From Chloroflexota bacterium (lineage in GTDB: Bacteria; Chloroflexota; Limnocylindria; Limnocylindrales; CSP1-4), in assembly GCA_003158295.1 (NCBI GenBank), contig PMIP01000080.1, positions 3,187 to 53,131 on the forward strand: a stretch of DNA of 49,945 nt, given 5' to 3'. The notes below the pieces were generated by a model. The model was not told the origin of the DNA. It did not search any database and saw only the letters and a list, made by a program, of their open reading frames with translations. Every line of letters begins with the position of its first letter. Positions within the stretch are counted from its first letter, which is position 1. Both the position numbers and the translations under genes were made by a program. This document shows, piece after piece, positions 31,739 through 40,383 of the stretch.

Positions 31739-32212
31739 ATGGGCGTTCTGATGGACCTGATCGCCGGCGACGCCCGCGAGATCCTGCTCGCGATCAGCGT
31801 CGACGACTGGGCGGGCTTGCGCGATCGGTCTCGCTTCGTGGCCTACATCTCTCTGGGAGGCGGGCTGGACCTGACCTGGCTCGATCTTCTGGCCCTGGCG
31901 GCGCGCGAGACGATCGGCAGCGAGTCGCCCGGACCGTTCACCCTGGCCACGCATTCGCTGAAGAGCCGGCCCGGTGATGTCTCCGAGAGGACGGTCGAGC
32001 GAGTCGACCCGCACTGGATCGACGCTGTGGCGCGACTCCCCGACAGCCGAACAGACCGGATCGCCGCACGCTGGATCGAGCTGCTCGACTGCGAAGGCTG
32101 TGCGGTCGATCCGGAGGAGAAGCCCATGTTTCGTGAGCTGGCCGGCGATCTGATCGAGTTCTGTCGTCGCGCCGAGGGCGCCGAGGACGTTCTCTTCGCC
32201 TGGTCGCTCTAG
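31739..32212 (+). CDS. conserved-looking hypothetical protein
   Basis: The 157-aa protein starts MGVLMDLIAGDAREILLAISVDDWAGL and ends with a helical, acidic segment MFRELAGDLIEFCRRAEGAEDVLFAWSL. It has no membrane segment. It resembles small soluble immunity- or DUF1877-type proteins in size and composition but I cannot name a family. GGAGG lies five bases before the ATG and the gene starts 32 bases after sucD, so it is probably the third gene of that operon. Confidence 0.7.
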   Translation: MGVLMDLIAGDAREILLAISVDDWAGLRDRSRFVAYISLGGGLDLTWLDLLALAARETIGSESPGPFTLATHSLKSRPGDVSERTVERVDPHWIDAVARLPDSRTDRIAARWIELLDCEGCAVDPEEKPMFRELAGDLIEFCRRAEGAEDVLFAWSL

Positions 32213-32248
32213 TCGATCGCCACGACGGCAGCTGATGCCCGTCCCGGA

Positions 32249-32713
32249 TCAGTAGCCGAGCTTCGTCCAGGCTGGGCCACCCGGAGCTTCGATGAGCTCG
32301 ACCAGGACACCGTGACAGCTCTTGGGATGGACGAATGCGACGGGGCCTTCCCCGCCCTTTCGCGCCTCAGTGTCGATGAGCTGCAGGCCATCTGCGGCCA
32401 GCTTGTCCAGGGCAGCCTGGATATCCGGCACCTCGAAGCAGACGTGATGGAATCCCTCCCCCTTAGCCTCGAGGAAGCGGGCCACCCCGGTGGTGTCGTC
32501 GTCCGGCTGGACCAGCTCGATCCTGACCTCGCCGACGGGAAGGAATCCGATCGTCACCCGGTCGAAAGGAATCGGCGTCACCGTGTCTACCGTCAGTCCG
32601 AGCTTGTCGCGGTACAGGTCGAGGGCGGCATCCAGGCTTCGGACTATGACGGCTACGTGGTGGATTCTCCCGATCCCGAGGCCCTGGGGCAGGGCGGACT
32701 TGAGCTGATCCAT
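32249..32713 (-). CDS. mce: methylmalonyl-CoA epimerase
   Basis: The epimerase interconverts (S)- and (R)-methylmalonyl-CoA, feeding the B12-dependent mutase. The 154-aa vicinal-oxygen-chelate protein has two repeats: IGRIHHVAVIVRSLDAALDLYRDKLGLTV and EGFHHVCFEVPDIQAALDKLAADG, with metal ligands His (RIHHVA), Gln/Glu, His (FHHVCF) and Glu in HGVLVELIEAP. AGGAG precedes the ATG by about four bases. The mutase lies upstream on the same strand beyond a repeat-rich 474-bp gap. Confidence 0.95.
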   Translation of the reverse strand: MDQLKSALPQGLGIGRIHHVAVIVRSLDAALDLYRDKLGLTVDTVTPIPFDRVTIGFLPVGEVRIELVQPDDDTTGVARFLEAKGEGFHHVCFEVPDIQAALDKLAADGLQLIDTEARKGGEGPVAFVHPKSCHGVLVELIEAPGGPAWTKLGY

Positions 32714-32863
32714 GACTCTCCTGCGACTGGCGGGTTACTGCCGGACCGGACGGGCGTTCGATAGGCTCGGGCGGCTGGACCGCCCGTCGTGGCGCCATGG
32801 TACGAGAACCAGGATCGCGCGGCGAACATGGATGGCCCGGCGGCGGGGAGGCCGTGCCGGATC

Positions 32864-33167
32864 TGGCAGCTGCTGGCAGCTGCCAAACTCGCAGAGCAGT
32901 CCCGAGACTGGCAGCTGCCTGCAGCTGCCACACACGCTGAGTGGCTCAGGACGGTGCGGCGCCGGCGGCTCGTGGCCCTATGGCCGCGTGCCATCGCGGG
33001 GAGACGACCGCAGACACTGGCCGGCGCAGGCGTTTGGAACCGTGCAGCTACCTGCAGCTATCCGACGGATCGGGCATCGGCGCCGAAGTGCAGCTACCTG
33101 CAGCTATCCACTCGATCGGTCGCCGGGGCAGTGTAGATGTCGCCGGCCATCCACTCGATCGGTCGCC
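32864..33167. repeat. array of phased GCAGCT-type repeats in a 474-bp intergenic stretch
   Basis: Copies A (32864-32892) and B (32909-32937) share TGGCAGCTGC-type halves plus a CCA-A/C-AC-CGC tail at a 45-bp step. Copies C (33042-33063) and D (33088-33109) are identical, GTGCAGCTACCTGCAGCTATCC, at a 46-bp step. ATCCACTCGATCGGTCGCC follows D (33106-33124) and recurs at 33149-33167. Within each of the copies A-D the GCAGCT core occurs twice, about one helical turn apart. No protein-coding gene is convincing here. The pattern looks like a protein-binding array or a dispersed repeat element. Confidence 0.75.
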
Positions 33168-33187
33168 AGCGACTCCGCGGCCGGCGT

Positions 33188-34891
33188 CTAGACCGTGACC
33201 AGCTCGCGGTGCTCGCCCCAGACGCCCCGTAGCCGATCGCAGATCTCCCCCACCGTGGCATAGGCTTTGACCGCTTCAATCATGGAGGGCAGCAGGTTCT
33301 CCTCGCCGCGGGCGCATTCCTCGAGCCGGCGCATGGAGATCTCCCAGGCCGCGGCGTCGCGCTCGGCCCTCACCTGCTGAACGCGCTCCACCTGACGCCG
33401 TTCGCCTTCCGGATCGATACCTTGCAGGGGCGGCGTCGAGGTCTCCTCGTCGCGGAACTTGTTGACTCCCACAACGACCTTCGAGCCGCTCTCGATGGCA
33501 CGCTGGACCTGGTACGAAGATTCCTGGATCTGGCGTTGCTGATAGCCCGTCTCGATGGCCGCAAGGGTTCCGCCCAGGCCCTCGATCTCGGCCAGGTAGT
33601 CGTTCGCGGCGGCTTCAAGCTGATTCGTCAGCGCCTCGACGAAGTAGCTGCCGGCCAGCGGATCCGGAGTCTCCGTGACCCCGGATTCGTAGGCCAGGAT
33701 CTGCTGGGTTCGGAGGGCGAGGCGAGCTGCTTCGGCGGTCGGCAGGGCCAGGGCCTCGTCCCGGGAGTTGGTGTGAAGGCTCTGCGCCCCGCCCAGGACC
33801 GCGGCCAGAGCCTGGACCGTCGTTCGGACAACGTTGTTGTCGATCGACTGGGCGGTCAGGGATGAGCCGGCGGTCTGGACATGGAAGCGGCAGGCCATGG
33901 AGCGCGCGTTGGAGGCTCCGAAGCGTTCCTTGACGATCCGGGCCCACATCCGCCGAGCGGCCCGGAACTTCGCCACCTCCTCGAATAGCTCGCTCCAGGA
34001 AGCGAAGAAGAAACTCAGACGATCGGCGAAGTCATCGATGTCCAGGCCACGGCTCAGCGCAGCCTCGACATAGGCGATGCCATCGGCGAGGGTGAAAGCC
34101 AGCTCCTGCGCGGCGGTGGCTCCAGCCTCTCGCATGTGGTAGCCGCTGATGCTGATCGTGTTCCAGCGGGGCAGCTCTTTCGAGCAGAACTCGAAGATGT
34201 CCGTCACCAGGCGCATCGAGGGCCGCGGCGGGAAGATGTAGGTGCCGCGGGCGATGTACTCCTTGAGTATGTCGTTCTGGATGGTTCCGCTGACTTGGGG
34301 CCGGCCTACTCCCTGCTTCTCGGCCGTAGCCACATACAGGGCGAGCAGGACGGCCGCGGATGCGTTGATCGTCATCGACGTGCTCACGGTGGCCAGGGGT
34401 AGGCCGGCGAGGAGAACCTCCATGTCGGCCAGCGAGCTGATCGGCACTCCAACTCGCCCGACCTCGCCCTCCGCCTGCGGCGCGTCGGAGTCGTAGCCCA
34501 TTTGCGTTGGCAGGTCGAATGCCACCGACAGCCCGGTCTGGCCCTGCTCCAGGAGATACCGGAATCGGCGGTTCGTATCCTCGGCGGTCGAGAAGCCGGC
34601 GTACTGGCGCATCGTCCACAGTCGGCCGCGGTACATCGTGGGCTGAACGCCGCGGGTATACGGGTACTCACCCGGCCGGCCAAGATCGCGATCCTCGTCC
34701 AGACCGGCGACATCGGCCGGCGTATAGAGATCCTGGATCTCTATTCCCGACGTGGTGAGGAAGCGCTCCTGGCGCTCGGGAGAACGAGAGACCGCGCGGG
34801 CCCGCGTGGTAGTCCGCCAGTTCTCTCTGCCCGCGTCGGGCGCCGACTTGTCGCTTCGATCGTCGTGAGTCACGTCCCGGTCCTGAGCCAC
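33188..34891 (-). CDS. mcmA: methylmalonyl-CoA mutase, catalytic (large) subunit
   Basis: This is the substrate-binding TIM-barrel part of the adenosylcobalamin-dependent mutase that turns (R)-methylmalonyl-CoA into succinyl-CoA. The 567-aa product has [44 protein letters not shown], the substrate channel [57 protein letters not shown], and [15 protein letters not shown]...NNVVRT. It ends before any B12-binding DxHxxG domain, so a separate small subunit is expected and is not in the window. GTG start at 34891 with GAGG upstream. The product succinyl-CoA joins the nearby SucCD and Sdh steps. Confidence 0.96.
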
Positions 34892-35040
34892 GTGCCGCTT
34901 CCTCTAGCCGTCCCAGCTCTCCTCGCATGAGCGTGCCCATTGATGATGGCACGGACGCCCCCATCATGGCCAACCGTCATGCATCACTGAGCCGGACCAG
35001 CTTGGGAACGAAGCGCCTGAAGCGCCCTCGGGCGGCTACC

Positions 35041-35196
35041 GTCTTTGTGCAAAGACGCCGGACCGAGGTCCGCCATTGCTGGGTTTGACCGTCGGATGAA
35101 GCCGACGTGCCGATGCCTCCGGCGCATGCCGGAAGTGCAGAGAAAGGGCGCGTTTGTCCACAGGATCGGTGAACAACTTCTCGATTCTGTGGATAA
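35041..35196. promoter_or_regulatory. palindromes and inverted DnaA-box pair upstream of parA
   Basis: The 454-bp gap between the mutase and parA contains no gene but several structures. GTCTTTG-TG-CAAAGAC (35041-35056) and CGGACC-GA-GGTCCG (35059-35072) are inverted repeats. TTGTCCACA (35154-35162) and TGTGGATAA (35188-35196) are DnaA-box 9-mers in opposite orientation, the second a perfect consensus. DnaA boxes beside parAB are often seen close to oriC in Gram-positive-type genomes, but dnaA, dnaN and rsmG are not in view. Confidence 0.5.
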
Positions 35197-35345
35197 GCAG
35201 GAGCCGCCGGAGAGGTTAGGTGCGGTAGCATCTAGAAGAGTCGCAATCGGGTTGACGCCAGCCACTTCCAGGGCCTGCTTCGCGGGGCAGCGCCGTCCGA
35301 ATTGGCCGGTTGTCCGCGACGGTACCTGATGCGGAGCGAGGTGGA

Positions 35346-36119
35346 ATGGCCGTGGCCAACGTCATCGCGATAGCGAACCAGAAGGGTGGAGTCGGCAAGA
35401 CGACCACCGCCATCAACCTGGCCGGCGCCCTCGCGGAACGAGGCTTGCGAGTGCTCTGCATCGACATGGACGCGCAGGCCAACCTGTCGGTCGGGCTCGG
35501 CATCAACCTGGGGACGGTCGAGCGATCCATGGCCAACGTACTGATGGAGCCGAAGGTCCGCCTCCAGGACATGATCCTGCCGACCAACACCCCGAATATC
35601 GACGTCGCGCCCGCCACGCTCGACCTGGCATCCACCGAAGTCGACCTGATGAGCTCCATCGGCCGCGAGTACGCCCTGGCCGAGTCGATCGACGACTGGA
35701 CCCAGACCCACTACGACTACATCCTGATCGATTGTCCCCCGACGCTCGGGCTTCTGACGATCAACGGCCTGGTAGCCGCCAACGGCGTGATCATCCCCGT
35801 CCAGACTCAGTACTACGCCCTCAAGGGCCTGACCGCGTTGGTGAAGGTGATCGCCACCATTCGATCCAAGCTCAACAGGAACCTGCGGGTCCTGGGGCTT
35901 CTGCCGACCTTCCACGACCCGCGCACCGTCCTCGGCCGGGAGATGCTGGAAGAGATGCGCGAACACGGCGAGAACCACGTCTTCGACACCATCATCCGCA
36001 ACGCCGTGAAACTCGGAGAGGCTCCGCTCGCCGGCCGGCCGATCACCGAATATGCCGGCGCCTCAGACGCCGCGAACAATTATCGCGAGCTCGCCAGGGA
36101 GGTAATCGCGCTTGGCTAA
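35346..36119 (+). CDS. parA: chromosome partitioning ATPase ParA (Soj)
   Basis: ParA is the DNA-binding ATPase that moves ParB-bound origins. The 257-aa protein shows the deviant Walker A ANQKGGVGKTTTAINLA, LCIDMDAQANLSVGLG, Walker B YDYILIDCPPTLGLLTINGL and the late TIIRNAVKLGEAPLAGRPITEYA. It lacks an N-terminal HTH, so it is the chromosomal (type Ib/Soj) form. ATG at 35346 has GAGGTGG upstream and gives the usual VIAIANQKGG start; the ORF-track start at 35310 is not needed. Confidence 0.97.
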   Translation: MAVANVIAIANQKGGVGKTTTAINLAGALAERGLRVLCIDMDAQANLSVGLGINLGTVERSMANVLMEPKVRLQDMILPTNTPNIDVAPATLDLASTEVDLMSSIGREYALAESIDDWTQTHYDYILIDCPPTLGLLTINGLVAANGVIIPVQTQYYALKGLTALVKVIATIRSKLNRNLRVLGLLPTFHDPRTVLGREMLEEMREHGENHVFDTIIRNAVKLGEAPLAGRPITEYAGASDAANNYRELAREVIALG

Positions 36120-37143
36120 GCCAGACTTCCGCGCCGCGGCGACCGCCCGCCTCAACGAGGAGAGAGGCCAGAGCCTCTCCCAAAACGTCCTGAGCCTGCT
36201 GAGCGCAGACAAGACGACGATCATCCGGCCGACTGCGGTCCGGAATATCCCCGTCGACAGAATCGACCCGAACCCCAACCAGCCCCGCATGGCCATGGAC
36301 AAGGCCGGCTTGGACGATCTGACCGCGTCCGTCCGCGAGCACGGCGTCCTCCAGCCGATCCTCGTCAGGCCCGAGACCGGAGGCCGATACCAGCTGATTG
36401 CCGGGGAGCGCCGCTTGCGCGCCGCCCGCGCCGCTGGTCTCACGATGATCCCCGCGCTCATCGAGGAGATCGACGATGAGACGGCTCTCGAGATAGCCGT
36501 CATCGAGAACCTTCAGCGCGAAGACCTGTCGCCGCTGGACGAGGCGCTCATATACGCGAAGATGATTCACCAGCACGGCTACAGCATCCGTAAGCTCGCC
36601 CAGCGGCTGGGCAAGGACAAGGGTTACCTGGAGAACCGGCTCCGCCTTGCCGACGCGCCGGCGGAGATCCGCGAGCTGGTGTCTGTGCGCAAAGACACAC
36701 TGTCACACGCCTACGAACTTCTCAAAGTCCAGGACCCCAAAAAGCGCAAGCACCTTGCCGGGATGGTCGCTCGGGGAGAACTCTCGCTGATTAAGCTGCG
36801 CCAGAAGATCGACGGTGCGCCCCGGCCCGGCCGGGGATCCACGCCGGCTACTGCCTCCAAGCGAGTGCCCGTCGGAGCCGCGACCGCAAAGGCTCTCGAG
36901 GTCGACGCGGAAGCGAGCTGGCTGGCCGGCGGCTCCAAGAAGCCTCTGACGGACGACTCTCTGATGGCCCTCAGAGGCCAATTCAACGACGCCATCGCAG
37001 ACCTTGTGGAGCTGCTCCAATCGGACGTCATGAAGACCATCGACTCCACGGACCGGCAGAACCTGGCGAAGTACCTGACGATCGTCAAGGTGCGCCTGGA
37101 GAACGCCATCGGCGTCGTCCGGCGGGGTAAGCCGGAGCGATAG
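36112..37143 (+). CDS. parB: chromosome partitioning protein ParB (Spo0J)
   Basis: ParB is the CTP-dependent clamp that loads at parS and spreads. The 343-aa protein has a basic N-terminus, the CTPase box region IPVDRIDPNPNQPR and IAGERRLRAARAAG (GERR motif), IENLQREDLSPLDEALIYAKMI, an HTH (SIRKLAQRLGKDKGYLENRLRLA) and a C-terminal dimerisation segment. A Gly/Pro/Thr-rich linker precedes the last domain. Start is TTG at 36112, eight bases inside parA, with AGGGAGG nine bases upstream. No perfect parS (TGTTTCACGTGAAACA) was seen in the window. Confidence 0.96.
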   Translation: MAKPDFRAAATARLNEERGQSLSQNVLSLLSADKTTIIRPTAVRNIPVDRIDPNPNQPRMAMDKAGLDDLTASVREHGVLQPILVRPETGGRYQLIAGERRLRAARAAGLTMIPALIEEIDDETALEIAVIENLQREDLSPLDEALIYAKMIHQHGYSIRKLAQRLGKDKGYLENRLRLADAPAEIRELVSVRKDTLSHAYELLKVQDPKKRKHLAGMVARGELSLIKLRQKIDGAPRPGRGSTPATASKRVPVGAATAKALEVDAEASWLAGGSKKPLTDDSLMALRGQFNDAIADLVELLQSDVMKTIDSTDRQNLAKYLTIVKVRLENAIGVVRRGKPER

Positions 37144-39581: not shown

Positions 39582-39587
39582 TGTGGG

Positions 39588-39659
39588 ATGGCCGACGAAG
39601 AGCGCTCTCCATCTCGCGACCGGCCGTTCCGTGATGAGCCGTTCAGTTCTCATGTTTGA
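39588..39659 (+). other. possible leaderless 23-codon upstream ORF
   Basis: ATG at 39588 lies six bases after the TACGCT -10 box. The frame (MADEERSPSRDRPF...) runs 23 codons and stops at TGA 39657-39659, eight bases past the ATG of the nucleotidyltransferase gene, a layout that could couple translation. There is no homology evidence. Confidence 0.25.
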
Positions 39660-39663
39660 GAAC
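39646..39663. promoter_or_regulatory. operator-like inverted repeat over the MNT start codon
   Basis: GTTCTCA-TGTT-TGAGAAC has perfect seven-base arms and covers the ATG at 39652. It matches the promoter-spacer repeat at 39561-39578 in arm sequence and 7-4-7 layout, 85 bases apart. Confidence 0.6.
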
Positions 39664-40383
39664 AGCGAGATCGTGCCTCTGGCGGTAGGCAGGTCGATGG
39701 TTCGGCGGCGGATCCTCGCCTTGTTGCTGGCGGAGCCGGGGCTTCGGCTGCACCTGCGAGAGATCCAGCGACGCGCGAGCACGAGCCCCGGGACCGCCAG
39801 CCGCGAACTCGCCAGGCTCGTCTCGGCAGGCCTGATCGAGCGTGAAACCGAAGCGAATCGAGTCTTCTTCCGCGGCTCGGCGTCGCCGTTCGCGACGATG
39901 CTTCGCTCGCTTCTGGTGGGCGTGCCTACGCTCCCGGCGGCTCCGGGCAACTTGCAGGCAGACGGGACCACCTCCGCTCCCCCACTCCACGTTGGTACGA
40001 TGCCGGGACACCCGCCGGCCGAGAAGGTCGCCATCTCGGGCGGTGGCGTGGCCGGAATGAAGGCAGATCCGCAAGGCCTCGAGGCGGGAGCAACCGTCGC
40101 CGCGCGGATGCGCGCGATCTACGGCGAACGCCTTCGGGGCGTCTTCCTGTACGGCCAACGGGCGGCTGGCGGAGCACCGCATGACTCGGAGGTGGAGCTG
40201 ATGGTGGTGCTGGATCGCATCGAGCGCTACGGAGAGGAGCTCGACCGGACCAGCACGGTCTTTGCGTCGCTCTCGCTGGAGCTGGGAGTGGTCGTCAGCC
40301 GCACCTTCGTCTCCGAAGCAGACTGGCGGACTCGGACCGACGGCGGGCTGCCAAGAGTCCGGGCCGAGGCGGTATCCCTGTGA
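39652..40383 (+). CDS. winged-helix/minimal-nucleotidyltransferase fusion (MNT-type antitoxin-like)
   Basis: The N-terminal 80 residues form an ArsR-like winged helix (VRRRILALLLAEPGLRLHLREIQRRASTSPGTASRELARLVSAGLIERE). After a linker comes a nucleotidyltransferase domain (RMRAIYGERLRGVFLYGQRAAGGAPHDSEVELMVVLD). In active MntA-type proteins this stretch is GSxxRGxxxxxSDxDL. Here Gly-Ser is Gly-Gln and both catalytic Asp are Glu, so AMP transfer may be lost or altered. The next gene encodes a HEPN protein overlapping by four bases (GTGA). The start is uncertain: GTG 39583 would precede the predicted transcript start; ATG 39634 is an alternative to 39652. Confidence 0.78.
   Translation: MFENSEIVPLAVGRSMVRRRILALLLAEPGLRLHLREIQRRASTSPGTASRELARLVSAGLIERETEANRVFFRGSASPFATMLRSLLVGVPTLPAAPGNLQADGTTSAPPLHVGTMPGHPPAEKVAISGGGVAGMKADPQGLEAGATVAARMRAIYGERLRGVFLYGQRAAGGAPHDSEVELMVVLDRIERYGEELDRTSTVFASLSLELGVVVSRTFVSEADWRTRTDGGLPRVRAEAVSL

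Follow-up and report, generated by a model that had tools for sequence, protein, structure and literature searches.

A conserved array of paired 10-bp palindromes as a candidate operator of a methylmalonyl-CoA epimerase-like gene in a genus of Chloroflexota

The stretch of DNA analyzed here, hereafter the window, comprises 49,945 nucleotides of a 2.7-Mb draft genome (G000). On its minus strand, the gene mce (32249–32713), which encodes a methylmalonyl-CoA epimerase-like protein of the glyoxalase fold (Pfam PF13669/PF00903), is separated from a methylmalonyl-CoA mutase gene (33188–34891, minus strand; PF01642, E 5.7e-228) by a gene-free gap of 474 bp (32714–33187). This gap carries an array of four repeat units. 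With respect to the direction of transcription, the mutase gene precedes the array, which in turn faces the putative mce promoter. In all other genomes of the genus, the gap is adjoined by an mce ortholog of 73–98 % identity, and the nearest named record of the mutase gene product is a Chloroflexi MAG with 79 % identity. Beyond the mutase gene lie the genes for ParA and ParB (35310–37143), ParB (36112–37143) being located 3 kb from the array. A MarR-like regulator (39583–40383) is a further neighbor, and nothing links it to the array. ParAB appears to be present twice in the genus: the canonical pair, seen in the relative G015 (L169, 3570–5281), lies by gyrB and is accompanied by GTTTCACGTGCAAC sites, and the divergent pair, with the helix-turn-helix GKDKGYLENRLRLADAP, is the one adjoining the mutase gene in the window.

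Each unit of the array consists of two 10-bp palindromes with the consensus GRCAGCTGYC, spaced exactly 10 bp from center to center. Unit 1 (TGGCAGCTGCTGGCAGCTGCCA, 32864–32885; all array features are given without strand) reaches a PWM score of 33.6 of 33.7 bits, followed by unit 2 (TGGCAGCTGCCTGCAGCTGCCA, 32909–32930; 31.3 bits), which starts 45 bp after unit 1. Unit 3 (GTGCAGCTACCTGCAGCTATCC, 33042–33063) is diverged and scores 20.7 bits. Unit 4 (33088–33109) is identical to unit 3 in sequence and score at a distance of 46 bp and most plausibly stems from a recent tandem duplication of about 46 bp. The initial annotation had described these repeats together with two GCAGCT cores per unit about one helical turn apart, and both observations hold, the step between the cores being exactly 10 bp in all four units. 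The repeats are furthermore non-random, as a search of both strands of the window for GCAGCT-N4-GCAGCT with up to one mismatch returned six matches, all of them in the gap, where 0.33 were expected and none of 100 shuffles reached six. The unit is nevertheless described better by two abutting GRCAGCTGYC palindromes than by a directly repeated GCAGCT. A third type of element (ATCCACTCG...) had been counted as a member of the array as well, which we do not follow: its two copies of ATCCACTCGATCGGTCGCC (33106–33124 and 33149–33167, spanning 33106–33167), located 43 bp apart, are devoid of the GRCAGCTGYC motif, look like a partial copy and are probably a by-product of tandem duplication in this genome.

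To place the array in its phylogenetic context, the orthologous gap was also retrieved from the remaining 20 genomes of the genus. Units were found in 20 of the 21 gaps, with one to four units each and 51 in total. Decamers with at most one mismatch occur 69 times in 20 gaps compared to an expectation of 2.2; the genome G013, which lies outside this decamer count, adds two units. An alignment of 49 units shows AGCT cores with hardly any variation, while the two bases between the decamers are almost free and the flanks carry almost no information. The spacers between the units have diverged while the AGCT cores were kept, so that 20 of 21 genomes show a motif conserved upstream of an orthologous gene with variable spacers, as is characteristic of an operator array. 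The sole genome of the genus without the array, G010, is nested within an array-bearing clade with a support of 1.0 in a tree of six proteins; the array was therefore present in the ancestor of the genus and underwent a single loss. In sister genera the orthologous gap between the mutase gene and mce measures mostly 11–85 bp, with three longer ones, and does not contain the array motif. The gap is best explained as a regulatory region that became enlarged in the genus. Absence from close strains together with a lack of spacing conservation, named beforehand as signs of random decay, was thus not what we found.

A search of the genome and its relatives revealed the repeats to be locus-specific rather than dispersed. 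In G000, matches to RCAGCTGYNNRCAGCTGY with one mismatch allowed occur only in the gap between the mutase gene and mce. Relatives show scattered off-locus matches, most of which occur singly and whose frequency is close to that of a reversed-pattern control, and in 14 sister genera matches to the motif are even rarer than those of the control. The mobile short repeat that the initial annotation had offered as one explanation is hence rejected. Single off-locus occurrences include one site in G019 as well as a perfect 22-bp unit in G015 (L169, 5988–6009), which stands alone 0.7 kb from the canonical parA, with an mreD-like gene on its other side and a parS-like site at a distance of about 200 bp. 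The literature matches listed for GGCAGCTGCC come, judged by title, from non-bacterial or primer/probe contexts.

We also considered the off-locus matches as members of a regulon. The sites in G007 and G013 fall on a conserved promoter, GCAGCTACAATC, which belongs to a zinc-ribbon gene, and as the other copies of this promoter share only GCAGCTACAATC while the second half of the unit is missing, the overlap is attributed to chance. The zinc-ribbon gene itself carries GCAGCTACAATC, a −10-like box, a few bases before its start codon in nearly all copies found in the genus (L180–L194), and the box recurs with minor changes in sister genera, which suggests a conserved extended −10 and a transcript with almost no leader. 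Within the window, this type of promoter pattern is found at chance level.

Alignment of the mce-proximal part of the 21 gaps revealed conservation of three minus-strand elements. Besides the ribosome-binding site of mce (GCAGGAGAG, 32716–32724), these are a leader motif (TCGAACGCCYGTCCGGTCC, 32743–32761) of the dyad-like form GAAC-N4-GTYC and a −10-like element (TTYTCGTACCATKG, 32795–32808) with TACCAT as the −10 hexamer, their consensus forms in the alignment being TCGAACGCCYGTCCGGTC and TTTTCGTACCATTG, respectively. The −10-like element is kept in nearly all 21 genomes, including G010, and probably represents the mce promoter, although no clear −35 element was seen upstream of it. As to the leader motif, exact matches were found only at mce in all five genomes tested, giving no indication of a regulon. 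The motif, in the form TCGAACGCCYGTCCGG shared by the window and its relatives, resembles a GAAC-N4-GTTC dyad that is LexA-like in shape, but has a fixed GCCY center, and several tandem copies of it are present in G018 (L017).

The array is positioned with respect to these elements. In 11 of 20 genomes, drawn from both main subclades, the proximal unit is located 105–109 bp from the −10-like element of mce, and in the other nine the distance amounts to 65–76, 85 or 90 bp. The sequence in between is near random, with a mean identity of 0.55 compared to 0.48 after shuffling. The position of the unit relative to the mce promoter, itself predicted from the sequence, appears constrained. G010 has lost the leader motif along with the array, while it retains the −10-like element and the ribosome-binding site; this co-loss amounts to one event.

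Spacing between the units follows a different pattern. While the 10-bp step within the unit is invariant, the distance from unit to unit ranges from 29 to 133 bp across the genus, and a Rayleigh test for helical phasing at 10.5 bp gave p = 0.19. A half-turn signal (5.25 bp) with a naive p of 0.001 emerged post hoc from data that are not independent, and we draw no conclusion from it. Regular steps of 43–46 bp are confined to G000 and its nearest relative G012, in which the blocks of the repeat have hardly diverged so far, with single spacings of 45–46 bp in three other genomes. Phasing of the units by four helical turns, as proposed initially from these steps, therefore does not extend to the genus as a general rule, and tandem duplication of a unit plus its spacer offers the best explanation of the steps.

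Taken as a whole, we consider it moderately probable that the repeats form an operator array that is anchored to the mce promoter and controls mce. We link the array to the control of mce mainly on account of its anchoring to the −10-like element together with its co-loss with the leader motif. An action on the end of the mutase transcript is an alternative for which proximity speaks to the same degree, the array being equally near to the mutase stop codon and to mce. The cooperative binding array put forward in the initial annotation fits with a motif that is locus-specific, is conserved in the genus and is placed with respect to the presumed mce promoter. In the proposed mechanism, mce would have its own minus-strand promoter within the enlarged gap, and each unit would most simply be bound by two dimers of one protein, side by side on the same face of the helix at a distance of one turn. 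The presence of one to four units, gained and lost via tandem duplication, may serve to raise local occupancy, while the proximal unit would be kept upstream of the −10 element at fixed distances, mostly at about 107 bp and otherwise at about 65–76 bp. Given these set distances, the bound protein would most likely act on mce transcription, be it by upstream activation or through a repression complex or loop involving the leader motif, and possibly in concert with a factor that recognizes this motif.

A search for RHH_1 in the genus led to conserved ribbon-helix-helix genes, of which those examined encode VapB-like antitoxins and adjoin VapC-like genes; a protein of the MetJ type was not found among them. 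One VapB/VapC-like pair (L240–L246) is flanked by a RarA/MgsA-like ATPase on one side and by a serine-pathway aminotransferase/dehydrogenase pair on the other, and is kept at this position across the genus genomes examined. As a tentative and rather doubtful extension of the operator reading, a genus-specific regulator with a single target may read the tandem 10-bp palindromes up to more than 100 bp upstream together with the unique leader motif, forming a dedicated mce switch with a mode of DNA recognition unmatched to described families.

Three other explanations were weighed against an operator of mce. The units could act as RNA hairpins in a transcript spanning the mutase gene and mce, providing 3′ end protection, termination or processing. 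Transcription may extend through the gap, as both genes are encoded on one strand, most units are able to fold (−13.7 kcal/mol on average on the minus strand compared to −8.0 for shuffled sequences), and in several species the palindrome of a single unit extends into its flanks. However, covariation is absent over the 49 units, in which stem pairs are either fixed or vary independently, and pairing of the flanks stays at the level of shuffled sequences apart from one flank pair with a nominal p of 0.03. Units 3 and 4 of the window fold poorly (−8.0 and −9.5), the hairpins are not followed by a T-run as would be found in an intrinsic terminator, and Rfam returned no match in 32000–35500 up to E = 1. 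Moreover, a hairpin does not need the 10-bp repetition within each arm, and we regard this role as unlikely.

Whether the array is instead a centromere-like site (parS-2) of the divergent ParB at 36112–37143 is a question raised by its surroundings, since ParAB lies about 0.4–0.7 kb beyond the mutase gene in genomes of the genus and the window contains no canonical parS. The helix-turn-helix of this ParB also differs from that of the canonical ParB of G015, the perfect off-locus unit of G015 lies near the canonical parA, and one site in G004 is found between parB and ubiA. Yet the DNA-reading region of ParB is near-identical in array-free sister genera and in G010, and G000 has no further copies of the array. 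In sister genera the array motif was not found near parAB, nor did eight of their regions contain tandem palindromes of any sequence near parAB, which leaves this assignment quite improbable. Still further from the evidence is a selfish or neutral short repeat, or a set of decaying, functionless tandem duplications, although the number of units varies from one to four and duplication of a 43–46-bp block is visible in G000 and G012. Such repeats would not account for a single locus per genome or a conserved distance to the −10 element, and as the decamers are conserved while the spacers have been randomized, selection is needed to explain the pattern; we consider a neutral origin very unlikely.

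Our verdict is that of a real, conserved, single-locus operator-type array, whose motif is new while its kind is known. Few regulators are known from this lineage, for which the closest named records are uncultured Chloroflexi. The array adds a well-conserved, putatively cis-regulatory element to it and points to a control of the epimerase that is separate from that of the mutase. The units can be used as bait for the binding protein, with G010 serving as a natural deletion control.

Several known systems share features with the array. Like REP/BIME elements, it is made up of GC-rich palindromic units between genes; REP/BIME are, however, dispersed in many copies, whereas the array occupies a single locus and does not qualify as a REP or MITE family. 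With the parS sites of ParABS systems it has in common palindromic sites near parAB, the canonical parS being the 16-bp TGTTTCACGTGAAACA, to which the sites by the canonical parAB/gyrB of G015 are related; in contrast to parS, the array is missing where a ParB of the type found in the window is present. Boxes of the PhoB/OmpR type are direct repeats that follow each other by one helical turn ahead of a promoter, an arrangement that the array resembles, but Pho-type half sites are non-palindromic with a step of about 11 bp, while each half of the array unit is itself palindromic and the step is 10 bp. MetJ/met-box and other ribbon-helix-helix operators consist of short abutting tandem palindromes in variable copy number, on which adjacent dimers bind cooperatively. 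Although met boxes are 8-bp AGACGTCT elements at an 8-bp step and are thereby distinct from the 10-bp GRCAGCTGYC at a 10-bp step, the array shares with these operators short palindromes in direct contact, arranged in tandem and variable in copy number.
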